Assembly: GCA_000440235.1 (NCBI GenBank)
Contig: ALKQ01000063.1
Span: 1 to 54,471, forward strand
Direction: 5' to 3'
Length of the DNA: 54,471 nt
Source of the DNA: Streptococcus suis 10581
Lineage (GTDB): Bacteria > Bacillota > Bacilli > Lactobacillales > Streptococcaceae
A model generated the notes under the pieces. The model saw nothing but the letters and a program-made list of their open reading frames with translations, ran no database searches and was not told the DNA's origin. The position numbers were made by a program, and so were the translations under genes. This document shows, piece after piece, positions 25,628 through 48,568 of this stretch (within the stretch, counting starts at the first letter, position 1; each line of letters starts with the position of its first letter).

Positions 25628-26500
25628 TTATTTTTCTTGAGAGTTTTCAAGATTGCTGAGAAAACGTTCGATTTTCATAAGCATAAGAGGATGATCGTAT
25701 ATGCGGCATAATTCTCTTGCTTGTAAGTAGTAGTTCCTCACCTGCTCCTTGTCCAAAAATGATGCACCAGCATTGCCGACTATTATTAAAAAATGTTCTA
25801 ATTGATAGCTAGTATGCTTAGATTTACAGAATTCAATCATTTCAAGTGCTTCTTGCATGGCTTCACTATATTTTTTCTGTGACTGTAAATAGTGGGCGTA
25901 GTTGAAACGGATTCGGATATAACCGAAAAGAAATTCTTGGTTTGTCAGATCCTTGGTTTGATAGAGTTCTTTGAGAAGTTTGTAATTTTTTTCATACTCT
26001 TCTTCACGTTTGACTAGAGAATAAAAATTAGACAGAGTGTTGAGGATTTTAAGATAAACAAGGGTTGTAGTTGATAGTTTCGAAAGGGCTTTTTCCAAAT
26101 GTGAGATAGCTTGATCTTTTAAATCATATTTATAAAAGTCAATAATGGCCTTGCTCCACTCCAGATACATTTTGTCTTCAAAGGATAGAATGCCCTTCTT
26201 TTCCACCTCCAATTGATAAATATATTCTAAATCATCATAATTTCTATCCTCTAATAACTTGGATGATAATTGTTTGAAATGAGAGAGATTAGACTTAATC
26301 TCGATTTGTTCATTAAAAAAGTAATCCAGAGGCACTTCCAGACGCTTGGATAGCTTGAAGAGAAGCTCAGCGGAGGGCATGAAACTCCCTCTTTCAATTT
26401 TACTGATTTGGCTTTGTTCGCAAATACCTTCTGCGAGAGTTTTCTGTGATAGTTTGAGTTCCTTCCGCCTTAATCTGAGTTTTTCGCCTAACATATTCAT
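25628..26500 (-). CDS. TPR-containing HTH regulator, RNPP/TprA-like (copy 1)
   Basis: A 290-aa regulator with an N-terminal Cro/C1-type HTH (about residues 5-60: LRLRRKELKLSQKTLAEGIC) and a helical C-terminal region with TPR-like repeats, as in PlcR/TprA peptide receptors. It is related along its whole length to the genes at 35905 and 42988. It is divergent from the ABC gene at 26715 and has its own promoter, so it probably controls that gene and itself. I found no peptide gene next to it: only 77 bases lie between its stop and smpB. It is part of an insert between smpB and tehB, which are adjacent in pneumococcus. Confidence 0.8.
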   Translation of the reverse strand: MNMLGEKLRLRRKELKLSQKTLAEGICEQSQISKIERGSFMPSAELLFKLSKRLEVPLDYFFNEQIEIKSNLSHFKQLSSKLLEDRNYDDLEYIYQLEVEKKGILSFEDKMYLEWSKAIIDFYKYDLKDQAISHLEKALSKLSTTTLVYLKILNTLSNFYSLVKREEEYEKNYKLLKELYQTKDLTNQEFLFGYIRIRFNYAHYLQSQKKYSEAMQEALEMIEFCKSKHTSYQLEHFLIIVGNAGASFLDKEQVRNYYLQARELCRIYDHPLMLMKIERFLSNLENSQEK

Positions 26501-26714: not shown

Positions 26715-28307
26715 ATGAAAAATCTCATCACTCTGATTTCTAAGTTTAAGTTTTTATTTTTAGGCTGCCTACTGTGCTCATTTCTTTTTGCTTTTGATGG
26801 CATCTTGTCTCCCTATGTGATGGGAGAATTGTCCATTAGAATGGAACAAGGAAATCTTGTATCAGTAGTGTCTTTGATTGTTTTTTGGGGATTGGGACTT
26901 GTTGGCTTATTATTAGCACAGTTAGTATATAATTTTTTGAAAGGAAAATTTTTACAAGGAACGAGTGTCTTTTTGAGAACGGCAATTTTACAATCCTCCT
27001 TTCAAAAGAAGCAACTGAATCTAGCCTCGACAAGTTTTTTAACCAAATCTCTGTCTGATGTGACGGTTATACAAGAAAAAGTAATCAATTCCTTCATACA
27101 ATTGTGTTACTGTATTTTCCAAGGCGTCATTTCATTGGCTTTTGTTTTGTCGCAGAATTGGAAGTTGGGACTGGTTTTTATCGGTTTTGGCATTTTACCG
27201 ACACTTGTGCCTAAGTTATCAGCCAAGTGGATTAAGAACGGAACGACGACCTGGCAGGCAAAAAATCAAGAATATGCCTTGTCTTTGGAAGAAAGTCTGT
27301 CATCCCGTTGGTTATTGGTACGTTTCAGAGCGATTGGAAATATTCTTTCCAAGAATAGAGAACTCTTATCCGATATGGAAAGCAGCTACTTTAGCATGAA
27401 TTTTAGGCAGGCAGTTTCTTCCTTCTTTGTCAGTCTGCTCTATAATCTATCAATACTTGTTGGTTTTTTGTATGGGGTTTATCTAATCAGTACAGGGGAA
27501 CTGGTCTTTGGTGTTTTACTATCGGTTTATATGGCTTCTGACCGAGTTGTAACTCCGCTGATTTCAGCTGTCTACTATATTAATGAAATGATTGGCTCAT
27601 TACCCTTACTAGAGTCAATTCAATTAAATGTTACCTATGATTGTTCCGATGATAGCGTTTTTATATCCAACGTTAAGATTGCAGATAGCGTGCTTGAAAC
27701 GGAAAATCTAGCAATCGGTTATGATTCTACTGTCTTGTTAAAAGGTCTCAATCTGTTTATACAGCAAGGGGAGAAGGTACTGGTGACAGGTGGCTCAGGA
27801 ACTGGGAAATCAACCTTATTCAAAACCTTGCTTGGAGAGATTCCTGCTTTAGATGGTACAGTACGGATTGGTCAAGAGGATAAGGAAGAGAATGTCTATG
27901 AGCACATCGCTGTGATTGACCAAAATTCTTTTGTCTTTACTGATACCCTACGGTTTAATCTAACACTTGGTTTTCCGATGGAAGACAGCCGTTTGTTGGA
28001 GGTTTTAGAACAAGTAGGCTTAGAAAAGTTTGCTAATTTGGAAATGTTGAATGCACGGGTAGGGAAAGAAGATATTCAGTTGTCAAATGGTGAACAACGT
28101 AGGCTTGAAGTTGCACGTGCAATATTACAAAGGAAAGAGATTTTGTTTGCTGATGAAGCCTTATCAGGTTTGGATAAAATAAATGCAAAGCTACTGTGTG
28201 GTATTCTACTGAATTATCCTGGCACTGTGTTGAACATCGAACACCATATACCAGAGCAGATGAAGGCTTTTTATACACAAGTGATTGACCTGAATGACTA
28301 TTGTTAG
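26715..28307 (+). CDS. ABC exporter, fused membrane and ATPase domains
   Basis: A 530-aa half-transporter: membrane helices in about residues 1-300, then an ATPase domain with Walker A GGSGTGKST, an atypical signature LSNGEQ, Walker B ILFADEAL and the switch histidine in IEHH. It is shorter than drug exporters of this fold (about 575-600 aa), with a trimmed C-terminus. It has no C39 peptidase domain. Control by the divergent TPR-HTH regulator suggests export of a peptide or of a toxic compound; the substrate cannot be read from the sequence. The region is AT-rich relative to rnr/smpB. Confidence 0.78.
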   Translation: MKNLITLISKFKFLFLGCLLCSFLFAFDGILSPYVMGELSIRMEQGNLVSVVSLIVFWGLGLVGLLLAQLVYNFLKGKFLQGTSVFLRTAILQSSFQKKQLNLASTSFLTKSLSDVTVIQEKVINSFIQLCYCIFQGVISLAFVLSQNWKLGLVFIGFGILPTLVPKLSAKWIKNGTTTWQAKNQEYALSLEESLSSRWLLVRFRAIGNILSKNRELLSDMESSYFSMNFRQAVSSFFVSLLYNLSILVGFLYGVYLISTGELVFGVLLSVYMASDRVVTPLISAVYYINEMIGSLPLLESIQLNVTYDCSDDSVFISNVKIADSVLETENLAIGYDSTVLLKGLNLFIQQGEKVLVTGGSGTGKSTLFKTLLGEIPALDGTVRIGQEDKEENVYEHIAVIDQNSFVFTDTLRFNLTLGFPMEDSRLLEVLEQVGLEKFANLEMLNARVGKEDIQLSNGEQRRLEVARAILQRKEILFADEALSGLDKINAKLLCGILLNYPGTVLNIEHHIPEQMKAFYTQVIDLNDYC

Positions 28308-35875: not shown

Positions 35876-35904
35876 AGTTGTATAATACGAGTGAGGTAAC
35901 AACA

Positions 35905-36771
35905 ATGAGTATACAACTAGGTTCTAGGTTAAAACAAAAAAGAAAAGAGATGAAATTATCTCAGAAAGAATTGGCAGAAGGTGTATGTAAACAAGGTCAA
36001 ATTAGTAGAATTGAGAGTGGTGCTTATACTCCAGGCTCTGAATTGCTTTTTGAATTATCAAAAAAACTAAATGTTTTGATGAATTACTTTTTTGAAGACA
36101 CTGTTTCTGAGCAGGAGGAGGAATTAGTAGAATTTAAAACTGTTGTCCGAAATTTCTTAGTCCATAGAGACTACCAAGGACTACGATATGTTTATGAATT
36201 GGAGTCTAATAATAAACATCGTTTATCGGTAGCAAATCAATTATACTTAGAGTGGATAGGTGGATTAGTCGATTTTTATTTTTATGATAAAAAGAAGGAA
36301 GCTATATCCAAAATGGAATATTTACTAGAAAAATTGGAGACTTCTAATTTATTTTTTTTACAAGTATCAAATACACTCCTAAATTTTTATTTTGATGTTA
36401 ATGATGAAGAATTATTTGATGTACAATTTGAAAGACTGATAGAAAAAACGGATACTTTCCAACCGATCACGATTGAAGAATTGGAATTAAAAATTAAACT
36501 TCAATATAACATTTCACGTTACCTATGGCTAAAGAAAGATTATATCCAAGCTATAGCTAGCATCACAAAGGCCATCGAATTTTGTAGGTCACACAGAAGC
36601 TATTATTCATTACCCGATTTATTTTGTTTACTAGGTAATGTCCATGAAGAACTTGGAAATACAGAGAGTGCGAAACAACATTTTCGTCAGGCATATTTTT
36701 TATATAAATTGGATGCTAACCGACAAATGGAATTGAATTTGGAGCGATATATAGAAGAAGACAAAATATAG
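35905..36771 (+). CDS. TPR-containing HTH regulator, RNPP/TprA-like (copy 2)
   Basis: A 288-aa regulator with an HTH at residues 5-60 (LGSRLKQKRKEMKLSQKELA) followed by a long helical TPR-like region, related to the genes at 25628 and 42988. I start at 35905 with GAGG upstream. Very AT-rich and with codon use unlike tpx or copA, it begins an apparent acquired island. Regulators of this class bind a small exported and re-imported peptide; pneumococcal TprA controls a lantibiotic locus. Immunity-type ABC genes and a processing-exporter remnant follow here, consistent with such a role. No intact Phr-like gene follows it; a terminator does. Confidence 0.8.
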   Translation: MSIQLGSRLKQKRKEMKLSQKELAEGVCKQGQISRIESGAYTPGSELLFELSKKLNVLMNYFFEDTVSEQEEELVEFKTVVRNFLVHRDYQGLRYVYELESNNKHRLSVANQLYLEWIGGLVDFYFYDKKKEAISKMEYLLEKLETSNLFFLQVSNTLLNFYFDVNDEELFDVQFERLIEKTDTFQPITIEELELKIKLQYNISRYLWLKKDYIQAIASITKAIEFCRSHRSYYSLPDLFCLLGNVHEELGNTESAKQHFRQAYFLYKLDANRQMELNLERYIEEDKI

Positions 36772-37002: not shown

Positions 37003-37148
37003 GAAAGGGGTTACAAAAAAACTACCATAAGAAAATTGAAAATGAGAGAAAAAACAAAAATAACAGCTGGTCAAATTTGTCTATACTATTGGTATGGAAT
37101 TGGTTTCCTTTGCTGGGATTAGTTTACATGGTTCCATTCACCAAATAA
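37003..37148 (+). other. Short transcribed region with possible small peptide gene
   Basis: Lying between the promoter at 36968 and the terminator at 37165, this is where a bacteriocin prepeptide would be expected. Two frames are open. Frame C has an ATG at 37042 and a 26-aa product ending GIGFLCWD (37042-37122). Frame B is open from 37005 to a TAA at 37146-37148 and encodes a basic segment then a hydrophobic one ending VYMVPFTK, but has no ATG, GTG or well-placed TTG. The AAAGGGG at 37004-37010 is a possible ribosome site with no start codon at the right distance. The gene may be decayed, or use an unusual start. Confidence 0.3.
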
Positions 37149-37213: not shown

Positions 37214-38113
37214 ATGGCAAATACATTATTAAATGTTACAGCAGTATCCAAAACTTACGGAAAGCAAAAAGTTTTAGATAATATTAGTTTTGATATTAAC
37301 TGTGGAGAAATTTGTGGTCTAGTGGGAGAAAATGGTGCTGGAAAGACTACCTTAATCCGAATTCTTGCAGGATTGATTTCGAGTAATTCTGGAGAAATAA
37401 GCGGTTTAGAGAGTCAAGCTGTTTCTTGTATTGTAGAGTCACCTGCTCTATATCCTCATTTATCTGCAGGCGACAATCTTCGTGTTCAAATGATAGGTTT
37501 AGGAATTGGGGCGGATATAGATAAAGTCAAAAATCTATTACGTATGGTTGGACTTGAGGGTGTAGATTCTAAGAAAAAAGTGAAAGATTTTTCTCTTGGA
37601 ATGAAGCAACGTTTGGCAATAGCGTTGGCTATCTGTGATTGGCCCAAACTACTTATATTAGATGAGCCAATAAACGGTTTGGACCCTGTGGGTATTAAGG
37701 AAATTCGTGAGATTCTTCTACTTTTGAAAAATGAGTATCGTATGACCATTCTAGTTTCAAGTCATATCTTGTCTGAATTAGACTTGGTAGTTGATAAGTA
37801 TATTATCATGAGCAAAGGAAAAGTGTTGCAAATAATCCAAAAAGATGCCTTGCAAAACCTACTCCAAACCAAACGGATCGTTAGAGTGGATAAGGAGCAT
37901 GAAGCGCTTGAAGTGTTACTTTCCGAGGGAATTGAGGCGGTAGTGACCGATGAAGGAATAGAGCTTTCAGAAAGTGGGAAATCAACCAGCTGGATTATTG
38001 ATTGCTTACGGAAAAAAGGTATTCAAATCGAGGGAATCATTAAATTTCAACCGAGTTTTGAATCCTATTATCTATCTTTGATTACAAGAGAGGAGGTTCC
38101 TCATGTTCCATAA
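37214..38113 (+). CDS. ABC transporter ATP-binding protein, bacteriocin-immunity (LanF/BcrA) type
   Basis: A 299-aa stand-alone ATPase: Walker A GENGAGKTT, signature FSLGMKQR, Walker B LLILDEP, then NGLDPVG and a C-terminal extension typical of BcrA/LanF proteins (LGMKQ in place of LSGGQ). Such ATPases work with ABC-2 permeases to expel lantibiotics or bacitracin from the membrane. The ribosome binding site is AGGAGG. Its 3' end overlaps the permease gene by 11 bases. The substrate is inferred only from family and surroundings. Confidence 0.85.
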   Translation: MANTLLNVTAVSKTYGKQKVLDNISFDINCGEICGLVGENGAGKTTLIRILAGLISSNSGEISGLESQAVSCIVESPALYPHLSAGDNLRVQMIGLGIGADIDKVKNLLRMVGLEGVDSKKKVKDFSLGMKQRLAIALAICDWPKLLILDEPINGLDPVGIKEIREILLLLKNEYRMTILVSSHILSELDLVVDKYIIMSKGKVLQIIQKDALQNLLQTKRIVRVDKEHEALEVLLSEGIEAVVTDEGIELSESGKSTSWIIDCLRKKGIQIEGIIKFQPSFESYYLSLITREEVPHVP

Positions 38114-38810
38114 AGTGAAATCAGACTTTTATAGGGTATGGAAAGAAAGGAGTTTAATTTTTCCAGTCTCTCTGGTGATTCTTTTAGGAGTAGTCTTCGC
38201 TTATCTGATGAGAGAAACTGATGGACAAGGAGGTATTACGATTATTTTATCTTCAGTGGCAGGGTTTATTCCTCTATTCTTCTCAAGTGCTTGTAATCTA
38301 GTCTGGGGAGAAGAATTTACCAATCGCACCATTAACCATGCAATCATAAAAAGCTCCTCTCGTTTTTCAGTTTACTTTTATAAATTATTTGAAACCTTGT
38401 CCCTGTGTTTTGCATATACGCTTTTACTATTTTTTACAGTAATTGTATGTAGAATTTTTTTGAATGGACAAGTAGATGTGAGTGAAGCATTTGACCTGCT
38501 CATTAAACAGTTGCCATTTCATCTCTGTTTTTCGCTACTATGTCTGTTTATTTTTCAGTATGTAGATAAGATTTATCAAGCCTACCTTATTTATACTATG
38601 ATTGTCTTGATGTTTGATAATTTAGTCTCGTATGTAACAACAAGTCTCTTGGCAAATGATGTTTTTTCTCATTTCTTTCTTTTTAATCAGGTAAAGTTAA
38701 TCACTAATCAAACAGAATTTTTTACTCCGTCTAGTCTGATTGCATTGATATTTAGTGTTGTCTATTTATTGAGTTCGTACTTACTTTTTTCTAGTAGGGA
38801 GTTTAAATAG
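38103..38810 (+). CDS. ABC-2 type permease, LanE/LanG-like
   Basis: A 235-aa membrane protein with six predicted helices and an extracellular-first ABC-2 layout, including the NRTINHAIIKSSSR segment between helices 2 and 3 that is common in this group. It overlaps the ATPase gene, with GGAGG in the ATPase 3' end, so the two form a translationally coupled transporter. Only one permease gene is present, where many lantibiotic immunity systems have two. Confidence 0.8.
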   Translation: MFHKVKSDFYRVWKERSLIFPVSLVILLGVVFAYLMRETDGQGGITIILSSVAGFIPLFFSSACNLVWGEEFTNRTINHAIIKSSSRFSVYFYKLFETLSLCFAYTLLLFFTVIVCRIFLNGQVDVSEAFDLLIKQLPFHLCFSLLCLFIFQYVDKIYQAYLIYTMIVLMFDNLVSYVTTSLLANDVFSHFFLFNQVKLITNQTEFFTPSSLIALIFSVVYLLSSYLLFSSREFK

Positions 38811-38829
38811 TTTAAGGAGGGCACTTGTA

Positions 38830-39396
38830 ATGAAAAAAATAATTCCATTTTTCATTTTAATCATTACTTTTTTAGGAGTTGCGATTTACCTAAGTTTAGA
38901 GAGTGACAAAACAGATGTAGAGATTGCTAAGTCTTGGACAGTAACAGGCAAAGAGATGAATACAATTGAAATCTATGGTAGTGAGCAGCCTTTTGAACTT
39001 GAAATTGTGGAAACAGACCAAGAAGTGACGACGATTAGTTTGACAGGGAAAATTTCTGAAGCAGCAATGTCAACACTTGAGAAGGCAGATATTAGTGAAA
39101 ACGATGCTTATATACCATTGGGGAAAAAGGGTTTTAAGTTAGTTACCGTAGCAAGTGGGAAGAGTAGTTTAAAAGCAAAAATTGCATTGGCAAAGGGAGC
39201 TACTTTTAAAGAAGTTTACGTTGATACATGGAACGGTACTGTAGATATTACTCTGCCTAGAAGTTACGATGGAAGTTATGATGTCAAGTTGAATAGCGGG
39301 GCGAAGTTACTAGAAGTTCCAGAAGAAGGAGCTAATAAGGCAAGTATCCTCAAAATAGATGCCTATGCCGATGTTAGCATCAGAAAGGGTGATTAG
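38830..39396 (+). CDS. Membrane-anchored protein of unknown function
   Basis: A 188-aa protein with an N-terminal hydrophobic segment (about 5-22) and a beta-rich outside domain resembling DUF4097-type adhesin-like repeats in its spacing of short strands (VYVDTWNGTVDITLP). There is no lipobox cysteine. It is third in the operon after the LanF/E-like genes, with AAGGAGG upstream. Small anchored proteins in this place often assist immunity by binding the peptide; this is inference. Its stop lies just before the C39 remnant at 39398. Confidence 0.6.
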   Translation: MKKIIPFFILIITFLGVAIYLSLESDKTDVEIAKSWTVTGKEMNTIEIYGSEQPFELEIVETDQEVTTISLTGKISEAAMSTLEKADISENDAYIPLGKKGFKLVTVASGKSSLKAKIALAKGATFKEVYVDTWNGTVDITLPRSYDGSYDVKLNSGAKLLEVPEEGANKASILKIDAYADVSIRKGD

Positions 39397-39517: not shown

Positions 39518-40399
39518 CTATTTTCGCTTATATCTTTGTAGGGCTTTAGCAGTTGCTAATCGGATAAAGGTTAGATAGAAACCTGTCACACCAGCCATTT
39601 CCAGCAGGAGTTTCTGTAATTGTTCCCTGATAGATATGGTAGATAGAGTATTTGTGCCAATCACAATGGGATACTTTTCTTGGAAGGTAAATTGGAACTG
39701 ATGTGCCAATAGAAGTAGCATGAACAGGATGAGCGCATAGATAGCAACTTGGAGGAGAAGAGCAAGTAAGGTCAGGCTAGTGGCATATTGACTAGGGGAT
39801 AGTCCGTTGATAAAGAGTAGGCCACGATGTTTGGAAAGGTCGGTCATGAGGAGCCAAGCTAAGAGACAGCAGATGACAAGGGGGATGATATAGATACTGG
39901 CAGGAAGAAGTTGCAACAAGGTCAGATAAACATCCTTGGGAGCAGTAGGATAGTGAAAGGTAAGAGTTTGCTCTAGAACTTTTTTATAGACTGTGATACG
40001 TTCTGCCAGTTCGCTGTTTGTAAAATGATTGATATTGTGCCCGTTTGCCTCCCAGTTTTGCATGGTCTGGTAGAGTTCTAACTCCGTTTCCAAGACCTCC
40101 TGACTTTTTCCTTGGATATGTTCCTTTTCTAAGTAGGTGGTCGTCAGTTCCAAGAGTTTTTTATAATAATCCATGCTTTCCTGGTCTAAGGCTTGAGCTT
40201 CCTTATCGTCAGCATACAAGACAATTTCAGCTTCTTTTTTGACTTGTATGATACGGGATCGATCCTCAAATCGTAGGTTTTCGGCCTCTAGAACATTCCG
40301 ATAGGACATGGCAAATGGGATAAGGGCGATAGCGGTTATCAGGGATAGAAAAATAGCATTGCGTTTCAGTCGTAGAATGAAAAGGAGCAGTAGATTCAT
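39518..40399 (-). CDS. ABC-2 transporter membrane protein, second permease
   Basis: A 293-aa protein with one N-terminal helix, a large outside region (about 35-165, charged and helical) and about four C-terminal helices. The layout mirrors the upstream 405-aa permease in shorter form. It starts 12 bases after the ATPase stop, with GGAGG. It is last in the operon of secreted protein, permease, ATPase and permease. Export of, or immunity to, the secreted product at 42538 is the likely job, by context. Confidence 0.65.
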   Translation of the reverse strand: MNLLLLFILRLKRNAIFLSLITAIALIPFAMSYRNVLEAENLRFEDRSRIIQVKKEAEIVLYADDKEAQALDQESMDYYKKLLELTTTYLEKEHIQGKSQEVLETELELYQTMQNWEANGHNINHFTNSELAERITVYKKVLEQTLTFHYPTAPKDVYLTLLQLLPASIYIIPLVICCLLAWLLMTDLSKHRGLLFINGLSPSQYATSLTLLALLLQVAIYALILFMLLLLAHQFQFTFQEKYPIVIGTNTLSTISIREQLQKLLLEMAGVTGFYLTFIRLATAKALQRYKRK

Positions 40400-40411: not shown

Positions 40412-41272
40412 CTATTCAAATAGTTCTTTATAGATTTCTTCGGACTGGTGCTCCTGAACGCTAATATCCAAAATTTCTACCTGACACGTCATAACTTGGT
40501 CTAGGTAGAAATGCAGACTATGAACACTGGTGTCTACCTGAATGCTATCATTGACCAAAGTCAATCCATTTACTTGTCTAAGTTTCTGATAAACTGTCTG
40601 ATTGTCACTAGTCTGAATGGCATATTGTCGCCCAACCTGTTCCAGTTTCCACTCAATGATTTTTCCCTGTTTAAGAAAGAGCAGTTGGTCGGTTAGTTGG
40701 TCTACTTCGTTTAATTGGTGGGAAGACACGATAATGGTTGAACCATTTTTGGCTAGTTTCTGGAGCAATTTTCGGGTTTGAATGTAGCTGGTCGGGTCCA
40801 AGCCGTTCAAGGGTTCATCCAAGAGCATGACCTGGGGCTTGTTCATTATACCGATAGCCAGCAGGAGATGTTGCTTCATTCCCAGGGAATAATTTTTGAC
40901 AGGGATATTCACATAATCACGGATACCGATTTCTTGGATGACTTCCTCAATCCGCTCTTTGGGTAAATCTTGGATAGTCTGGACCAACCGCAAGTGTTCC
41001 AGCCCCGTCAATTCAGGGTAGAGGACACGGTTGTCCTGCAGGTAGGCAAAGGTTTGGTAGACATTTGTATTATCGTGCTTTTTGCCATTTATTGAAATCT
41101 CTCCCGAATCAAAGGATTGCAGGTTGGCAATGCAGTCTAGGAGGGTTGTCTTTCCAGCTCCATTTGGTCCAATCAAGGCCCAAATTCCAGGTTCCACCAG
41201 TTCTAGGTTTAGCTGGTCTAGTATGTTCTTTTTCCCGTAGGATTTGCACAAATTGTGTATGGATAATCGCAT
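40412..41272 (-). CDS. ABC transporter ATP-binding protein
   Basis: A 286-aa stand-alone ATPase: Walker A GPNGAGKTT, signature YSLGMKQH, Walker B VMLLDEP with NGLDPTS, as in ABC-2 exporters of antimicrobial compounds. It begins 2 bases after the upstream permease stop, with GAGGT as its site, and energises the two permeases that flank it. Confidence 0.87.
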   Translation of the reverse strand: MRLSIHNLCKSYGKKNILDQLNLELVEPGIWALIGPNGAGKTTLLDCIANLQSFDSGEISINGKKHDNTNVYQTFAYLQDNRVLYPELTGLEHLRLVQTIQDLPKERIEEVIQEIGIRDYVNIPVKNYSLGMKQHLLLAIGIMNKPQVMLLDEPLNGLDPTSYIQTRKLLQKLAKNGSTIIVSSHQLNEVDQLTDQLLFLKQGKIIEWKLEQVGRQYAIQTSDNQTVYQKLRQVNGLTLVNDSIQVDTSVHSLHFYLDQVMTCQVEILDISVQEHQSEEIYKELFE

Positions 41273-41274
41273 GG

Positions 41275-42492
41275 TTAGACCTCACTTTTTCTTGTCAGGA
41301 GATAGAATTGCAGGCAATAGATGAGTAGGTTACTGATGAGCAGGACTGTGAAGACTTTTGGAATGCTGTATCCTGTCAATTGATGGTAGATGATAGCACT
41401 TCCGTCTGCCAGATTGCCTGCATTCCAAAGGCTGAATGGATTTAAGATATGGGGATAGAAGTTGGCACTGATAGCTATGCCTAGTGTGACAACCAGTCCA
41501 GCCAGTCCATTTTTTAAGACTCTAGCCAAGGTCTGTGCCACTCCCAGCAAAAATAGAAGGTAGAGATAGTGCATGCCACAGGCTAGCAAGATGACCTGGT
41601 AAATAGGTTTGATAGCTGTTTGGATCAGGCTGGAATCAATTCTCTTACTAATATAGGTGGTGACGGGATAAATCCAGCTACTATTGCCATTTAGTAAAAA
41701 AGCGATGAGCAAATGGCTCAGATAGAGGGTTAGAAAGAGGGCAGTATAGAGTGTTAGGAAGGCTAGGTATTTATTGGTTGTAATTCGGATTCTAGTCAGC
41801 CCTAGGGTCTGTAAAAGGCGAATCTGCCGGCTAGTTCCCTGCTGGTCTTTGATGAAAAAATTGGTGAAAGTTAAGAGAAAGAGAGGAAGGGTGATGACCA
41901 AGCCTAGCTGTTTTTGACCCTGCCAGATTTCATGACTGGTTCCTTTTAAGGCCTGCTGACCCCGGCTTTTGACGATTTCTCTATCTGTTGGTGTTTGGGG
42001 ATTTTCAAAGGCTGTTAGGTAAAGCTCAGTTGGAAAGGCTGAGGGAATATTTTTTTCTAGCAGATACTTGGACATCAAGAAGGTATTTTCGATGGTTTGT
42101 GGGGTAAAATCATAGCTTCGGTAGGAATGGCTGATGTATTGGCCATCCTTCTGATAGTGCTGGATATTTTTCTCATAAAAATAGGTCCAGTCCTCCTTCT
42201 TGACCGCCTCAATCTCCTTTTGGTGGTTGGCAATATAGTCTGTAAAGAATGTTTTTTCAGCCTGGTAATCCTCTTCGCTGAGGGCTTGATTCTGATACTG
42301 TGTTTCTAAATCTTGTATGATATTTTCAAAATTTTGGATAGACTGTTCATAGTGTTGGATGACCTTTAGCTTGGCCTGGCGATTGTGGTAGCCTGCTAGC
42401 AGGGAACTAGCTAGAATCATCAGCAGCATGACCAAGATAGCGACCAAGTTTTTCTTGCTACGGAAAAATAGTTTGCCTTCAATTTGAAACAT
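41275..42492 (-). CDS. ABC-2 transporter membrane protein, first permease
   Basis: A 405-aa protein with one N-terminal helix, a long outside segment (about 35-190, partly coiled coil) and five or six C-terminal helices. The start at 42492 is set by GGAGGT 4 bases upstream; codons back to 42504 would include that site. It is the first transporter gene after the small secreted protein. The long outside domains in both permeases suggest contact with an extracellular peptide or protein. Confidence 0.7.
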   Translation of the reverse strand: MFQIEGKLFFRSKKNLVAILVMLLMILASSLLAGYHNRQAKLKVIQHYEQSIQNFENIIQDLETQYQNQALSEEDYQAEKTFFTDYIANHQKEIEAVKKEDWTYFYEKNIQHYQKDGQYISHSYRSYDFTPQTIENTFLMSKYLLEKNIPSAFPTELYLTAFENPQTPTDREIVKSRGQQALKGTSHEIWQGQKQLGLVITLPLFLLTFTNFFIKDQQGTSRQIRLLQTLGLTRIRITTNKYLAFLTLYTALFLTLYLSHLLIAFLLNGNSSWIYPVTTYISKRIDSSLIQTAIKPIYQVILLACGMHYLYLLFLLGVAQTLARVLKNGLAGLVVTLGIAISANFYPHILNPFSLWNAGNLADGSAIIYHQLTGYSIPKVFTVLLISNLLIYCLQFYLLTRKSEV

Positions 42493-42537: not shown

Positions 42538-42828
42538 TTATCTAGAGATAGTTCCTGAATAGTAGGCTAGGTAATAACCGTCACTAGTTTTTTGATAATC
42601 GGTTAAGCGTAAATAGCCGTCGTACTTCACACCGTGTGGATATTCATCGTAGTATCTAGTTTGAGTTAGATTTTTAACTACGAATAATTTTCTGTTAATG
42701 TAATAGGAACGAGGGATTGCTGCCACTCTTAGCGAGGTTTCAGCATTTACTGATAGAGTTGTAGTTGTTGCTAGTATCGGGCTAATGATAGATAGTAGCA
42801 AGGCTGAACGCAAAACAATCTTTTTCAT
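42538..42828 (-). CDS. Small secreted protein, possible bacteriocin or signal
   Basis: A 96-aa protein with a clear Sec signal peptide (residues 1 to about 26, cleavage after SVNA). The mature part is about 70 residues, rich in tyrosine and basic residues (RYYDEYPHG, DGYYLAYYSG), with no cysteine. I do not recognise the family; size, signal peptide and company of ABC genes recall lactococcin-972-type loci, but the sequence does not show their hallmarks. The start at 42828 has GGAGAA at the right distance; the frame from 42846 does not. A strong promoter lies upstream, divergent from the TPR-HTH regulator. Confidence 0.7.
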   Translation of the reverse strand: MKKIVLRSALLLSIISPILATTTTLSVNAETSLRVAAIPRSYYINRKLFVVKNLTQTRYYDEYPHGVKYDGYLRLTDYQKTSDGYYLAYYSGTISR

Positions 42829-42873
42829 GTTGTATTCTCCATTCATTTATAGAAAATCTCTTCTCTGCATACT

Positions 42874-42902
42874 ATTATATTAATTTTTTTGGACATAGTC
42901 AA
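42874..42902 (-). promoter_or_regulatory. Promoter of the secreted-protein/ABC-2 operon
   Basis: On the minus strand TTGACT (42902-42897) and TATAAT (42879-42874) with a 17-bp spacer: close to consensus. Confidence 0.8.
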
Positions 42903-42926: not shown

Positions 42927-42946
42927 AAAATGATGAAATTCATTTT
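42927..42946. promoter_or_regulatory. Candidate operator of the copy 3 regulator
   Basis: AAAATGA-TGAAAT-TCATTTT, a 7-bp perfect inverted repeat between the divergent promoters. The regulator's own -10 (TATAAT, 42956-42961) lies 10 bp further right. Confidence 0.45.
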
Positions 42947-42987
42947 GAAATAGTGTATAATATTATTAAATAAATTTGGAGTATGTT

Positions 42988-43860
42988 ATGAACAGTATAA
43001 GTGGTAGTCGTTTTAAGCAACGAAGAAAAGAACTTGGACTGACTCAGAGTGCCTTAGCTAAGGATATTTGTGAGCAGAGTTTGATTAGTAGAATTGAAAA
43101 TACCAACCTTTCTCCCTCATCGGAAATCCTTTTTCTACTGTCTAATAGGCTGGGTGTGACTATGAATTATTTTTTTGAGGAATTTGTTCAAGAAAGTAGG
43201 CATAGTATAGGAAAAATACGAACTATTTTCTCCCAACAATTGCTTCTCAGAAATTATGAAATTGTAGAACAATTGTATGTGAAAGAGGTGGAAAGCAGGC
43301 ACTTATTGAATGAGGAAGATAAGGCTTATTTAGATTATATTTTTATCTTGGTTCAATTTTACTTATACAATGAAAGGGATTTTGCGACAAAAGAGTTTGA
43401 TAGACTAAGTGCCATTATCGCTCCTCATTATTATTTTTATTTAGATTTTTTGAACAGTTACGCCAGTTTTCTAGGTGAAGTTGGTGAAGATGACAAATAT
43501 ATGGAGTTAATCAGTAATGTAAAATCAGAGGTGAATAAGCTGGATTTATCAATCAATGCTGACTTTCAAGCCTATATAAAGATTGGTTACAATTATGCTA
43601 GATTTCTTCTAAAACGAAAACAGACGAACTTAGCTTTAGATGAAGTGACAGAGCTGATTAACCAATTGAATGCCTACAACAGTAGTTTTTTATTGCCAGA
43701 TTTACTATGTTTATTGGGGAATATCAGCAAAGGCTTATTGAGGGAAGATGAAGTTTTAGATTTGTATGAGCAGGCACTAGTTTTATACAAGTTACAAGGA
43801 AATACAAAGTTATATTTGTCATTGAAGAATTTTTTAGTAACAATGGGTAAGGAAATATAA
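42988..43860 (+). CDS. TPR-containing HTH regulator, RNPP/TprA-like (copy 3)
   Basis: A 290-aa regulator: HTH at about residues 4-58 (RFKQRRKELGLTQSALAKDI) and a helical TPR-like C-terminal domain. It is a paralogue of the genes at 25628 and 35905. The start at 42988 has TTTGGAG 6 bases upstream; the in-frame TTG at 42976 overlaps that site. A Phr-like peptide gene starts 33 bases after its stop, the arrangement of TprA-PhrA pairs, in which the peptide is secreted, trimmed, re-imported by an oligopeptide permease and bound by the TPR domain. The divergent secreted-protein/ABC-2 operon is the likely target. Confidence 0.83.
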   Translation: MNSISGSRFKQRRKELGLTQSALAKDICEQSLISRIENTNLSPSSEILFLLSNRLGVTMNYFFEEFVQESRHSIGKIRTIFSQQLLLRNYEIVEQLYVKEVESRHLLNEEDKAYLDYIFILVQFYLYNERDFATKEFDRLSAIIAPHYYFYLDFLNSYASFLGEVGEDDKYMELISNVKSEVNKLDLSINADFQAYIKIGYNYARFLLKRKQTNLALDEVTELINQLNAYNSSFLLPDLLCLLGNISKGLLREDEVLDLYEQALVLYKLQGNTKLYLSLKNFLVTMGKEI

Positions 43861-43893
43861 TGAAAAATTAGTTATATCAAAAAGGAGGTATGT

Positions 43894-44022
43894 ATGAAAC
43901 GGATAATTAAATTCGTGTGTCTGTTTCTCGCAATCGCAATAGTAATCATTCCCCTTAAACGAACCGTTACGAGAACTTCTGATGGATTTGATCCTGGGGG
44001 AATTAATATTATGAAAAAATAA
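43894..44022 (+). CDS. Phr-like secreted signalling peptide precursor, 42 aa
   Basis: A 42-codon gene with a perfect AAAGGAGG site 8 bases before its ATG. The product has a basic start (MKRIIKF), a hydrophobic core of about 14 residues (LFLAIAIVII) and a polar tail TRTSDGFDPGGINIMKK: the make-up of a Sec-exported pro-peptide. The tail resembles the active pneumococcal PhrA end SNGLDVGKAD (from memory) in S-[ND]-G-[LF]-D. It directly follows a TprA-like regulator on the same strand. I infer that a peptide from its C-terminal part is the ligand of that regulator; the mature ends are unknown. Confidence 0.72.
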   Translation: MKRIIKFVCLFLAIAIVIIPLKRTVTRTSDGFDPGGINIMKK

Positions 44023-44027
44023 AGAAC

Positions 44028-44056
44028 TTGAATATCTTTGTTGAATTTGATATACT
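44028..44056 (+). promoter_or_regulatory. Promoter of the 111-aa protein gene
   Basis: TTGAAT (44028-44033) and TATACT (44051-44056), 17-bp spacer. AAGGAGG precedes the ATG. Confidence 0.7.
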
Positions 44057-44085
44057 AAATTTATCAAAAACAAGGAGGGTCTTTT

Positions 44086-44421
44086 ATGGAAAAGACACAG
44101 ATTATTCAAGACGTTTTGGCTCTCATTCAAGACTTGAATCGGGCCTTCCAAGCAGATAAAGTAGGAACAGCTGATGAACAGCGATTGCAACATAATCTGA
44201 CAGAGACGACTCGCATATTGTCGGAGGCCGAGTCTGTTACCAATAGAGAACTGATTGCGATTGAGAAATTTTATCGTTCGACCAGTTTTTTGGTTGGATT
44301 AGGCGACCTGCGGTTGAGTGAAACCAGCAGGCAGGCTTGGCAGGCCTTCGATCGCTATTACTACCAAACCATCAGAGAAGAACTCAAACTCTATGGTGGC
44401 TCTGCCATTGCCCAAGTATAA
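44086..44421 (+). CDS. Small helical cytoplasmic protein, function unknown
   Basis: A 111-aa protein with no signal peptide or membrane segment, predicted mostly helical, and with no motif I can name. Acidic/amphipathic helices and size are like bacteriocin immunity proteins, and it lies next to the Phr-like peptide and secreted-protein modules, but this is weak evidence. It has its own promoter and is followed by a hairpin, so it is an independent transcript. Confidence 0.6.
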   Translation: MEKTQIIQDVLALIQDLNRAFQADKVGTADEQRLQHNLTETTRILSEAESVTNRELIAIEKFYRSTSFLVGLGDLRLSETSRQAWQAFDRYYYQTIREELKLYGGSAIAQV

Positions 44422-44430
44422 TAGATGTTA

Positions 44431-44454
44431 AGAGGGGGTAAGCACCCTCTCTTT
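44431..44454 (+). terminator. Hairpin after the 111-aa gene
   Basis: AGAGGG/CCCTCT (44431-44436 with 44445-44450) with a short T stretch. Confidence 0.55.
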
Positions 44455-44458
44455 ATGT

Positions 44459-44464
44459 TATAAT
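44459..44464 (+). promoter_or_regulatory. Extended -10 promoter of the MacB/FtsX-type ABC operon
   Basis: TATAAT with TGT just upstream, 25 bases before the ATG. It immediately follows the preceding hairpin. Confidence 0.6.
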
Positions 44465-44489
44465 ATTACTAAGAAAAGCGAGGTATACC

Positions 44490-45191
44490 ATGTCCTATAT
44501 CCAAGTAATCAATTCGTCAAAATACTACCAAATGGGGGATGCGACCATTGTGGCCAATGACAGCGTGTCCTTTGAGATTGAAAAGGGAGAGCTGGTCATC
44601 ATTCTGGGTTCGTCTGGGGCTGGCAAATCCACTCTGCTCAATATCTTAGGAGGCATGGATAGCAATGACGAGGGGGAGGTTTGGATTGACGGTGTGGATA
44701 TTGCCAAGCTTTCAAGTCATGAACTGACCAATTATCGTAGAGATGATGTAGGCTTTGTCTTTCAATTTTATAACTTGGTTGCCAATCTGACCGCTAAGGA
44801 AAATGTGGAATTAGCTGCAGAAATTGTCAAGGATGCCTTGGATGCCGAGGAAGTCTTGGAACAGGTCGGACTCGGTCACCGAATCAATAATTTCCCTGCT
44901 CAGCTTTCAGGCGGTGAGCAGCAACGGGTTGCCATTGCCCGTGCCGTTGCCAAAAAGCCTAAAATTTTGCTTTGCGATGAACCAACTGGCGCTCTGGACT
45001 ACCAAACAGGTAAGCAGGTCTTGCAAATCCTACAAGATATGTCCCGCAAGCAGGGGGCAACGGTGATTATCGTGACCCACAATAGCTCTCTGGCCCCTAT
45101 TGCAGACAGGGTCATTCGGATGCGGGACGCCCGTGTGCATTCGGTAGAGATGAATGCAGATCCGCAGGATATTGCAAGCCTAGAATATTAG
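44490..45191 (+). CDS. ABC transporter ATP-binding protein, MacB/LolD type
   Basis: A 233-aa ATPase with Walker [11 protein letters not shown]-loop FQFYNL, signature LSGGEQQR, Walker [13 protein letters not shown] and THN switch. This group drives mechanotransmission-type permeases of the FtsX/MacB fold and usually deals with peptides, lipids or antibiotics at the outer membrane face. The stop TAG lies 11 bases before the permease ATG. Confidence 0.9.
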
Positions 45192-45202
45192 TGGGTGAAA
45201 CT

Positions 45203-48200
45203 ATGAAAAAGAAAATCTACTGGAAGGATATGAGGCAATCTCTGCTTTCTTCCAAGGGGCGTTTTTTGTCCATATTTAGCCTGATGATGCTAGGAGCTCT
45301 AGCTTTGACAGGTCTGAAAGTAACAGCTCCCAATATGGAAAAGACGGCCCAAGCCTATGTAGCCAGTCATCGAACGATGGATTTGGCGGTAATTTCAGGT
45401 CTGGGACTTAGTCAAGCTGACCTGGACGAATTAGAAACGATAGAAGGTGCTACTCTTGAAGCGGGCTACTTTAAAGATGTGGTTACTAATGAAGGACAGA
45501 CTGCCATTCGGCTGTTTTCAGCTCCCCAGACTCTATCGACCTATAAGCTAGTAGCAGGGGAAATGCCCAGCCAAAAGGGGCAAATTGCTCTGTCAGCTTC
45601 TTTAAAAAATCGTTACAAATTGGACGATACTGTTCAAGTGACGGAGTCTGATAAGGATGGAAAAATCTTGACACAGACAAGTTTTACTCTTGTGGGCTTT
45701 GTCGCATCAGCAGAAATTTGGGACAATGAAACCATGGGCATGGCTGCAAGTGGTGATGGGCAGTTAGGTGGCTATGGTCTTGTTAGTCAGGATACCTTCA
45801 AATCAGAAGTTTACACTATTGCCCGTATTCGCTATGATGATCTGGTTGATTTACCATATTACAGTCAGGCCTATCAAGACAGGTTGGACCAGCACCAAGA
45901 AGACTTAGAAAAGTTATTGGCTAACAATGATGAACAACGATTGGCAGCTGTTCAGTCAGATGGACAGACAGATATTTCAAAAGGGGAAGAGGAAATTGCT
46001 CAGGCTCAATCCCAGCTTGACCAAGCAGAGGCAGATTTGGCGAAAGGTCAGGAACAAGTCGCAAGTGGTCGCAGTGAGTTTGCGCGTGGTAGAGCCAAAC
46101 TAGTTCAATCGGAAATGGAATTGCGGACCGTCCTTGCTCAATTGTTGCAAACCAAGTTTCAATTGGATGAAAGTAAAAAAGAGTTGGACAGCCAGAAGGA
46201 TAAACTAGACCAAAGCAAATCTTTTTTGGATGTAAGTCACGAGGGACTACTTGAAACTGCTCAACGCTTGGAAAGTGCCAAACAGCAACTGGATTCCCAA
46301 AATGCCCAACTGAGTCAGACCGCATCTCAGATTTCCACAGGGCGAGCTAGTTGGTTTCAAGCTCAGAAAGAGTTAGACCTTGAAATTGCCAATCACTTGC
46401 AAGAAGGCCAAACCCTCTCAGACTATCCTGACTTATTGGCTAGACAGGAAGGTTTGGACGCAGAAAAAGCTCGCTTAGATCAACTTGAAGCTGACTATGA
46501 GCAGGCCAACCAAGCCTATTTACAAGGTTATGATTACTATCAAACCAAACAAAATGAATACAATAGCAATCTAGCCCAGTACCAAACTTGGAATCAAGAA
46601 TATCAGGCAGGTTTGGCCCGTTATCAAGCAGGTTTGAGTCAGTATGAACAAGGCATTGCAGCCTACAATAAAGGAGTAGAAGACTACGAATGGGGACTGA
46701 GTCAGTTAGAGTCTTCAAATCAACTGCTCCGTCAGGAAGAACTCCGTTTGGAGGAGGCTGATAAAGAGTTAAGTCAAGCTCAATCCCAATTTTCTGAGAA
46801 GAAAGCCACGGCCGATCAAGAAATTAGCCAAGCTCAAACCGAGATTGCTCAGGCTAAATCCGACTTAAGTAAGCTGGAAAAAGCGCCCTATCAGGTCTAT
46901 ACTCGATCAAGCCTACCAGGTGGGGATGGCTACACGACCTATAGCAATGCGACCAAGTCCATCGCAGTAGTAGGCAATGTTTTCCCTCTAGTTCTTTATC
47001 TCGTAGCTGCTCTAGTCGCCTTTACCACCATGGCTCGTTTTGTCGATGAGGAACGGACCCAGTCAGGCATTTTCAAGGCCCTTGGCTATACCAATAGGCA
47101 AATCATGGCCAAATTCATTTTGTATGGACTAGCAGCTGGTCTAGTTGGTACCATTGTCGGCATACTTATGGGAAATCTTGTCCTATCACCTATCATTTCG
47201 AGCATTATCACGCAGACCACGGTGATTGGACCTGCCAAGCTACACTTTTATCCCTTCTGGACTGGTTTAGCCGTGATCCTCTCATTGATTTCCTCCGTTT
47301 TGCCTGCCTATCTGGTGGCACAGAGAGAATTGACCGAGAAACCGGCTCAACTACTCCTTCCCAAACCTCCAGCAGCAGGTTCTAGCATTTGGCTAGAAAA
47401 ATGGCCAGCTATCTGGTCCCGCCTGAGCTTCACCCACAAAGTGACTGCCCGCAACATCTTCCGTTACAAGCTCCGCATGCTTATGACTATCTTCGGTGTG
47501 GCAGGGACGGTCGCCCTCCTTTTCGGTGGCTTAGGCATTCGCTCCTCCATCTCAGGAGTTGTCCAACGTCAGTTCGGGGAACTCATTCATTATGATATGT
47601 TGGTAGTGGAAAATAGCAGAGCAGATGAGGAGGATTTAGACAAATTAACAGCCTTTCTCCAGTCGGACCGGGTTGGTCAATTCTTGCCAGTAGCTTTTGA
47701 ACAGCTCAGTCAAACAGTGGAAACTAGTGGCCAGAGAAAAAATATTTCCATTGGACTGTATATTTCAGACCGTCAGAATTTGGGAAATCTAGTCAGTCTA
47801 GAAAATTCTTCTGGTAAAGCTATCCAGCTGAGTGGCAGGGGCATTGTCCTCACAGAAAAATTGGCGCAAATCTACGGGGTCTCTGTTGGTGATAAGTTAT
47901 CACTGACCTTGGAAGATAAGGAAGTTTCAGTCAGGGTAGAGGCTGTGGCTGATATGTACGCAGGGCATTTTATCTATATGACAGATAGCTACTATGAACA
48001 AGTGACCGGCAAGCAGAAGACTGCCAATGCCTATCTGGTTCAGTTGAAAGACAGTCAGTTGGGGCATATTCAGACTCTTGCAAGTCAACTCCTAGCGATG
48101 CCAGCAGTCAGAAGTTTGGTTCAAAATACTTCTCTTATAGACATGCTTACCACGATTGCGGGCTCGCTTCAGACCATCATGACCATTCTAGTCATCCTAT

Positions 48201-48568
48201 CCATCTTGCTTGGCTTGGTTATTCTTTACAACCTTACAATTATCAATATGTCCGAACGGATTCGTGAATTATCCACTATCAAGGTACTGGGCTTCCACAA
48301 TAAAGAGGTGACCATGTACATCTATCGTGAAACCATTGCCCTTTCGCTAATTGGCATGTTGGTTGGACTGGTTAGCGGTATTTATCTCCACAAGCTCCTT
48401 CTTGCTATGATTGGTTCGGACAGTATCCGCTTTAATCCATCTGTCGGACTAGAAGTCTATCTCATTCCTATCTTAGCCATTAGTGGAATTTTGGCCGCTC
48501 TTGGTTGGTATGTCAATCACCATCTGAGAAAGGTGGATATGCTGGAGGCCTTGAAGTCAGTTGATTAG
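45203..48568 (+). CDS. Large FtsX-like ABC permease with extracellular coiled coil
   Basis: A 1121-aa permease. The first helix is near residues 18-40. A beta-rich outside domain follows, then a very long coiled coil (about 225-560, rich in Gln, Ala, Leu and Glu, with repeats such as QAQSQLDQAEADL). The first FtsX three-helix block lies at about 590-720 and the second at about 980-1110. I choose ATG 45203 over GTG 45191, which overlaps the ATPase stop. Similar giant permeases occur across Firmicutes and are linked to antimicrobial peptide or cell-wall functions; the substrate here is unknown. The stop codon abuts a structured repeat. Confidence 0.82.
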   Translation: MKKKIYWKDMRQSLLSSKGRFLSIFSLMMLGALALTGLKVTAPNMEKTAQAYVASHRTMDLAVISGLGLSQADLDELETIEGATLEAGYFKDVVTNEGQTAIRLFSAPQTLSTYKLVAGEMPSQKGQIALSASLKNRYKLDDTVQVTESDKDGKILTQTSFTLVGFVASAEIWDNETMGMAASGDGQLGGYGLVSQDTFKSEVYTIARIRYDDLVDLPYYSQAYQDRLDQHQEDLEKLLANNDEQRLAAVQSDGQTDISKGEEEIAQAQSQLDQAEADLAKGQEQVASGRSEFARGRAKLVQSEMELRTVLAQLLQTKFQLDESKKELDSQKDKLDQSKSFLDVSHEGLLETAQRLESAKQQLDSQNAQLSQTASQISTGRASWFQAQKELDLEIANHLQEGQTLSDYPDLLARQEGLDAEKARLDQLEADYEQANQAYLQGYDYYQTKQNEYNSNLAQYQTWNQEYQAGLARYQAGLSQYEQGIAAYNKGVEDYEWGLSQLESSNQLLRQEELRLEEADKELSQAQSQFSEKKATADQEISQAQTEIAQAKSDLSKLEKAPYQVYTRSSLPGGDGYTTYSNATKSIAVVGNVFPLVLYLVAALVAFTTMARFVDEERTQSGIFKALGYTNRQIMAKFILYGLAAGLVGTIVGILMGNLVLSPIISSIITQTTVIGPAKLHFYPFWTGLAVILSLISSVLPAYLVAQRELTEKPAQLLLPKPPAAGSSIWLEKWPAIWSRLSFTHKVTARNIFRYKLRMLMTIFGVAGTVALLFGGLGIRSSISGVVQRQFGELIHYDMLVVENSRADEEDLDKLTAFLQSDRVGQFLPVAFEQLSQTVETSGQRKNISIGLYISDRQNLGNLVSLENSSGKAIQLSGRGIVLTEKLAQIYGVSVGDKLSLTLEDKEVSVRVEAVADMYAGHFIYMTDSYYEQVTGKQKTANAYLVQLKDSQLGHIQTLASQLLAMPAVRSLVQNTSLIDMLTTIAGSLQTIMTILVILSILLGLVILYNLTIINMSERIRELSTIKVLGFHNKEVTMYIYRETIALSLIGMLVGLVSGIYLHKLLLAMIGSDSIRFNPSVGLEVYLIPILAISGILAALGWYVNHHLRKVDMLEALKSVD

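Follow-up and report, generated by a model that had tools for sequence, protein, structure and literature searches.

A small open reading frame (ORF) of 42 codons lies directly 3′ of a PlcR/TprA-like regulator gene in the Streptococcus suis DNA analysed here, a stretch of 54,471 nucleotides that is referred to below as the window. On the opposite strand, diverging from the regulator, stand the gene of a small secreted protein and the three genes of an ABC transporter operon. The features of the locus, in order of position, are as follows:

39518..40399, − strand: ABC permease 2 (293 aa; syntenic in the window and at 7/7 other loci)
40412..41272, − strand: ABC ATPase (286 aa; ABC_tran 5e-27)
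41275..42489, − strand: ABC permease 1, candidate immunity/export (404 aa; 11/197 genomes at 91-100% identity)
42538..42831, − strand: small secreted protein, a bacteriocin-like candidate output (97 aa; predicted signal helix, then four beta strands)
42874..42902, − strand: divergent promoter-like site TTGACT-17-TATAAT for the secreted-protein gene (consensus scan 11/12)
42927..42946, no strand: candidate operator, the palindrome AAAATGA-N6-TCATTTT, which overlaps the -35 for the regulator gene
42933..42961, + strand: promoter-like site ATGAAA-17-TATAAT for regulator and peptide (consensus scan 10/12)
42988..43860, + strand: PlcR/TprA-like regulator (290 aa; HTH_3 and a predicted TPR-type C-terminal domain)
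43879..43893, + strand: ribosome-binding site AAAAAGGAGG with a 5-base spacer, from the sequence (AAAAAGGAGG identical in 8/8 loci)
43894..44022, + strand: putative DPG-type pro-peptide gene (42 codons; basic MKR start, hydrophobic core, tail TVTRTSDGFDPGGINIMKK)

The ORF begins 33 bases past the TAA of the regulator gene on the same strand, an AAGGAGG motif stands 5 bases 5′ of its ATG, and its product is MKRIIKFVCLFLAIAIVIIPLKRTVTRTSDGFDPGGINIMKK, in which the DPG core takes the form GFDPG near the C-terminus. Further 3′, the window (44086-48568) encodes a 111-aa protein of unknown family, a MacB/LolD-like ATPase and a 1,125-aa FtsX-type permease; the last has 58.5% identity in genome G135, where the genes at 44086 and 44490 and the regulator stand at 97-98%. 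Two other RNPP regulators occur in the window. Behind one of them, at 35902-36771 (+; RNPP_C 1.4e-9), come an ABC ATPase that resembles TIGR03740 below cut-off, a permease and another small protein (37214-39396); neither a DPG nor a PhrA-type ORF was found adjoining it or its four close relatives, and an AAAGGGG site near 37005 was noticed close to it by eye. The other, at 25628-26500 (−), lies within the PhrA-type clade and is divergent to the gene of an ABC exporter (26715-28307); a PhrA-type precursor for it did not turn up, and it may respond to a peptide produced elsewhere.

Conservation and coding capacity of the small ORF

Taken alone, the ORF is only mildly unusual, because an ORF of at least 25 codons preceded by a ribosome-binding site arose in 0.9% of 20,000 gaps simulated with a first-order Markov model (225-base gap); its reality is settled by conservation rather than by this simulation. 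Orthologues of the regulator, at 97-99% identity, are found in seven further genomes (8/197 counting its own), the peptide ORF is open in all eight, and a search of 284 genomes of the genus with the peptide as query returned the identical eight genomes. These are close relatives from one lineage and do not represent eight independent events, and five named S. suis records from a second collection share their regulators with five of the eight and add nothing to the evidence. The ORF is conserved and evolves as a protein-coding gene: summed over pairs of the eight loci, dN/dS is 0.38 in its frame, against 1.45 and 1.52 in the remaining sense frames and 0.10 for the regulator. The initial annotation had put forward a genuine gene with a ribosome-binding site at this distance from the regulator, and had named as grounds against it a lack of conservation beside homologous regulators and a frame not kept between strains; the gene is real, since the ORF is present next to homologous regulators and keeps its frame throughout. 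Its description as unannotated was nearly right, in that three of the 18 protein clusters that match the peptide carry a source name, each of them an S. suis “hypothetical protein”.

A longer ORF on the opposite strand, 43834-44193, is not supported, given the dN/dS of the antisense frames (1.21, 0.59 and 1.52, versus 0.38 for the peptide frame).

Selection is unevenly spread along the peptide, with a dN/dS of 0.49 over residues 1-25 and of 0.19 over residues 26-42, so that the most constrained part is the hydrophilic tail and not the membrane stretch. This bears directly on a reading in which the ORF is a remnant, or a membrane or leader peptide (for example, a small toxin-like transmembrane one) that is co-transcribed with the regulator without being its ligand. 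While a basic 42-mer with a single hydrophobic stretch would suit a small membrane peptide too, and while its N-terminal part is variable between strains, a membrane function sits poorly with a constraint that peaks in the tail, with the recurrence of the same DPG core 3′ of 17 further distinct regulators behind differing hydrophobic parts, and with the release of its C-terminus reported for one published DPG precursor (PMC12445099, in the portion available); we consider this reading quite improbable. No relatives of the peptide beyond S. suis-type loci were found in the protein-cluster search or in the 284 genomes of the genus, and its link to other DPG peptides therefore rests on the short tail and on gene order.

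The regulator and its paralogues

The regulator carries an N-terminal helix-turn-helix (HTH_3, E 1.2e-10, residues 10-62), and its C-terminal part is predicted, on the basis of the modelled structure, to be a TPR-type peptide-binding domain of the PlcR fold; by sequence and by fold, its nearest solved relative is PlcR. It has no match to the Pfam RNPP_C family at E 0.01, and 20 of 47 aligned relatives match that family at E 0.001. A gene for an exported-type precursor is kept beside it at 8/8 orthologous loci, which bears out the earlier proposal of an exported-type pro-peptide paired with a regulator of the PlcR/TprA family.

Five paralogues of the regulator and at least one PhrA-type precursor are encoded in the same genome. 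One paralogue (G000:C92:24852-29694; locus L118, also L005) has a divergent PhrA-type precursor ending in ...VVDVGMAD. The pair studied here could then be a decaying or orphan system whose real pheromone is another peptide, such as this ...VVDVGMAD precursor, a reading to which the paralogues and precursor lend themselves and for which the published cross-talk of PhrA2 to TprA (PMC5436883, in part) offers a precedent. Purifying selection on both regulator and peptide speaks against it, as do the membership of the PhrA-type peptide in a different regulator clade and the joint presence or absence of regulator and peptide in 11/11 genomes that hold the ABC operon at ≥91% identity; we judge it highly improbable.

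DPG tails 3′ of related regulators

The search for small ORFs 3′ of regulator homologues that the initial annotation had proposed was run on 118 loci, some of them the same site twice, which amount to 106 distinct regulators among the matches listed, the weakest matches lying outside the set. One locus (L023) was excluded for an internal stop and too short a frame, and some regulators begin at their first ATG and are possibly short at the N-terminus (e.g., L021 and L092). A strict criterion was used because looser tail labels took in chance cases (L113; the LDSG rows L072 and L085), the FDSG rows L044 and L045 also being left uncounted. It called for an open stretch of 25-65 residues within 1 kb of the regulator, opened at a Met, Val or Leu residue as a proxy for start codons, and ending in xDPG plus 3-13 residues. 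Such a tail lies 3′ on the same strand at 24/106 distinct regulators and at 0/106 in each other combination of strand and flank, even though these three quadrants hold 2,366 open stretches of any sequence versus 713 in the 3′ same-strand quadrant.

The 24 regulators comprise seven S. suis-type orthologues (this one and six others) and 17 non-orthologous ones, which are 29-42% identical to the regulator 42988-43860 where aligned, and whose precursors have tails that include NQGFDPGPVFVAK, RGIDPGVIHLIKK, TEIDPGPANGVSR and LGFDPGELYSVKF. The D, P and G are invariant in 16/16 aligned precursors, which were picked for that motif. Judged from sequence and gene order, the arrangement of a regulator followed by a putative DPG peptide recurs within the genus; 53 of the 106 distinct regulators have neither a DPG nor a PhrA-type label. 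Five regulators about 40% identical to the present one offer a likely variant: in two genomes (G064 and G112), MKKYISILLMVTILLTLFPLAKVKTQGWEPDIIHRRE occupies the same place, and by its sequence it appears to be a drifted version of the DPG design, whereas it is not found in the other three.

This group, 40% identical to the regulator, has a paralogue in the genome under study (L117, G000:C44:98806-103648). The G064 and G112 members of the group carry a GWEPDIIHRRE peptide as well as a PF09683 bacteriocin gene on the 3′ side of the regulator; the own-genome copy has neither of them 3′, and it keeps an ORF that resembles, by eye, a lactococcin-972 immunity membrane protein.

The secreted protein and the ABC operon

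The product of 42538-42831 is best read as bacteriocin-like, and the ABC operon as serving its export or immunity to it. The best AlphaFold2 model of the secreted protein has a pLDDT of 74.9, with values near 90 across most of the mature part, the five models ranging down to 45.9; the predicted model gave no clear match to a bacteriocin fold, including that of Lcn972, and the sequence matched no bacteriocin family in Pfam or NCBIfam, including PF09683 and TIGR01653 at E 1. Homologues fall into 37 clusters, many of intact length, and the named ones come from S. suis only. Within the operon, the ATPase matches the lantibiotic-protection ABC model TIGR03740 (9.8e-53, below the cut-off of that model), and permease 2 has no Pfam match within cut-off. 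The secreted gene is frameshifted, truncated or without ATG in six of the eight genomes that keep regulator and peptide, and an ATG-started full frame is present in the other two. Since most copies lack such a frame and the protein has no bacteriocin-family match, the circuit may have a different output or may be in decay.

The ABC operon occurs in more genomes than the signalling genes, being present at ≥91% identity in 11, eight of which have regulator and peptide. The remaining three (G064, G123 and G156) keep the operon and lack all three of secreted gene, regulator and peptide at that site, where the gap shrinks from 1,596 to about 166 bases.

A proposed quorum-sensing circuit

Our best explanation, which we consider probable, is that ORF 43894-44022 codes for a pheromone precursor that forms a PlcR/TprA-like quorum-sensing pair with the regulator; this pair would then time the divergent secreted-protein/ABC operon. 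The complete quorum-sensing circuit suggested in the initial annotation is kept here as a proposal. Its sequence suggests that the precursor would be exported through the hydrophobic start and trimmed outside the cell, the pheromone being the C-terminal tail around SDGFDPGG, from ...TRTSDGFDPGGINIMKK; the tail would then be re-imported, presumably by an oligopeptide permease, and would bind to the regulator through the TPR domain of the latter. Candidates for import and for membrane proteolysis exist in the genome, in the form of three SBP_bac_5 proteins and one M50 protease, families that are common in bacteria. With less certainty, and by analogy with pneumococcal TprA, we infer that the regulator without peptide would repress its own and the divergent promoters via the palindrome 42927-42946, and that the peptide would lift this repression at both, so that regulator, peptide, secreted protein and ABC transporter would be co-produced at high cell density.

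Relief of repression is favoured on two grounds, the overlap of the palindrome with the -35 for the regulator gene and the apparent strength of the divergent promoter by itself. The palindrome, in AT-rich DNA, is a candidate operator and nothing more: its exact sequence occurs as a single copy in the genome, with three other places at one mismatch, it is only partly conserved among the eight loci, with changes in several orthologues, and no comparable half-site arrangement was found at other DPG loci. The main rival keeps the peptide as pheromone and makes the regulator a PlcR-like activator, with its own operon as the main target and perhaps the 3′ genes 44086-48568. PlcR is indeed the nearest solved relative, regulator and peptide stay intact where the secreted gene is broken, and no terminator-like site was found between the peptide ORF and 44086; set against this, the divergent promoter is near consensus with no obvious need for an activator, a promoter-like site (44028-44056) precedes 44086, and the secreted gene, regulator and peptide are jointly missing from a site where 44086-48568 and the ABC operon are still present. 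On balance, we regard activation as unlikely and relief of repression as the preferred reading of the circuit.

Antimicrobial genes beside related regulators

The 3′ genes of nine of the 17 non-orthologous DPG loci were compared with profile libraries, and five of the nine gave matches above cut-off: a complete lactococcin-972 cluster at L022 (refetched at larger size as L144; PF09683 6e-13, TIGR01654 4e-77, TIGR03608 4e-82), a PF09683 gene at L107 (L146; 7.5e-8), where regulator and peptide are separated by a transposase-like ORF, ThiF enzymes 3′ of the DPG peptide at L055 and L092, and a RamC_N protein 3′ of the DPG peptide at L108. At L013 (L143), a lactococcin-972 match stayed below cut-off, and the 3′ genes of L014, L095 and L026 had no such match in these libraries. 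At a tenth locus, L058 (L148), a lactococcin-972 protein (5e-13) comes directly after the DPG ORF. At this locus (G071:C1:710000-720000), a transposase-like ORF parts the RNPP regulator from the DPG peptide and the lactococcin-972 cluster.

Of the 69 PF09683 genes in 197 genomes, 15 have one of the 115 regulator homologues within 6 kb, compared with 0.25 expected from random placement, a figure that takes each genome as 2.1 Mb and the loci as independent and against which the significance is overstated, the 15 near-pairs falling in a handful of clades. Seven of them adjoin PhrA-type regulators (on the 5′ side), two DPG regulators, one L058 (with the insertion between), two regulators of the GWEPD type and three unlabelled ones. 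Because they are spread over all these types, proximity to antimicrobial genes characterises the regulator family as a whole, in agreement with the remark, in the consulted part of PMC6120550, that Rgg and PlcR regulators often flank bacteriocin clusters in pneumococci. The genome under study also has a lactococcin-972 gene copy of its own (G000:C3:82905-83093), with an internal TGA and not near any listed regulator homologue.

A wider reading, which we offer tentatively and hold somewhat less probable than its negation, is that of a “DPG code”, a genus-wide streptococcal pheromone language in which h-D-P-G tails (with GWEPD and GFNPG as drifted forms) would be read by regulators outside the PhrA clade, each switching on an exchangeable antimicrobial cassette, be it of lactococcin-972 type, a peptide modified by ThiF or RamC or, as at this locus, a novel small beta-rich secreted protein. 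The block of secreted protein, regulator and peptide would then come and go as one in S. suis while the ABC immunity operon stays permanently in place, and many strains would have retained signal and shield and lost the weapon. This reading is weakened slightly by the finding that just two of the 15 near-regulator bacteriocin genes adjoin strictly DPG-labelled regulators. For S. suis, the locus would supply a PlcR-type channel with a concrete candidate ligand of 7 to 15 residues, and the neighbouring secreted protein may act against rival bacteria at a time set by the regulator/peptide pair. More generally, the DPG tail is a simple rule for finding pheromone genes overlooked by annotation pipelines, and it points to gene sets that possibly serve competition between strains.

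Comparison with known peptide systems

Lactococcin 972-type clusters (the streptococcins of PMC6120550 and Lcn351 of S. suis, PMC9067509, both in excerpt) resemble the present locus in combining a small secreted protein, a membrane protein and an ABC ATPase, and such clusters follow the DPG peptide in L144, L146 and L148. By comparison, the transporter in the window consists of two permeases and an ATPase and is divergent, and the secreted protein lacks a PF09683 or TIGR01653 match.

TprA/PhrA and TprA2/PhrA2 of Streptococcus pneumoniae share with the S. suis pair a PlcR-family HTH-TPR regulator, a short exported-type peptide with a short D-x-G tail, and lantibiotic or bacteriocin gene neighbours. 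According to the parts available, the active forms of PhrA and PhrA2 are LDVGKAD and VDLGLAD (PMC5436883), and TprA is a repressor of its own gene, of phrA and of lantibiotic genes, with PhrA as its antagonist, while PlcR is an activator (review PMC4873490). PhrA genes are divergent and their products end exactly in LDVGKAD or VDLGLAD, classical precursors ending in SNGLDVGKAD lying 5′ of their regulators, whereas the S. suis peptide is encoded 3′ on the same strand and ends in ...DPGGINIMKK. In a maximum-likelihood tree, the PhrA-paired regulators form one clade (support 100/99; 41 rows, 28 PhrA-type and 13 unlabelled), which contains 0/24 DPG-paired regulators, these being scattered in several places outside; the eight PhrA-paired regulators compared are 31-33% identical to the regulator 42988-43860. 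The initial annotation had likened the tail to the active end of PhrA; the pair is not of the classical TprA/PhrA subtype, since the precursor lies 3′ on the same strand and is not divergent, its DPG tail has no D-x-G-x-A-D end, and the regulator falls outside the 41-row clade.

PlcR/PapR of the Bacillus cereus group differs in its regulon and in its peptide, PapR7 being ADLPFEF (PMC6568020, in excerpt).

Peptide signalling in S. suis has been described, in the sources seen in part, through ComRS and Rgg. In a term search of the S. suis quorum-sensing review PMC9782415, TprA, Rgg and Phr are absent and PlcR appears in the reference list only; among the matches listed, the S. suis-centred literature contains no description of this peptide, and a string search for DPG tails gave PMC12445099 as the sole relevant one among the papers covered. 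There, in the sections available, Caillot et al. (2025) give putative precursors ending in NGIDPGPANIMVK and GRIDPGPAHSMVS for PapR/TprA-like regulators of S. thermophilus, the C-terminal part of the NGIDPGPANIMVK precursor having been detected by LC-MS/MS in concentrated supernatant. Judged by its sequence, this “PapR/TprA-like” DPG precursor is the published match for the S. suis peptide. The clusters of the S. thermophilus/salivarius group likewise pair a PlcR-family regulator with a neighbouring small precursor that has a K/R-rich start, a hydrophobic core and a DPG tail followed by several residues. The S. suis tail TSDGFDPGGINIMKK differs in having F for I before DPG and G or V for P after it, and its locus in placing the peptide 33 bases past the regulator and in having its own secreted gene and ABC operon; moreover, one PapR/TprA-like C-terminus was detected in supernatant, whereas the S. 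suis peptide is predicted from sequence. The kind of peptide is thus already known, and its S. suis member is new.
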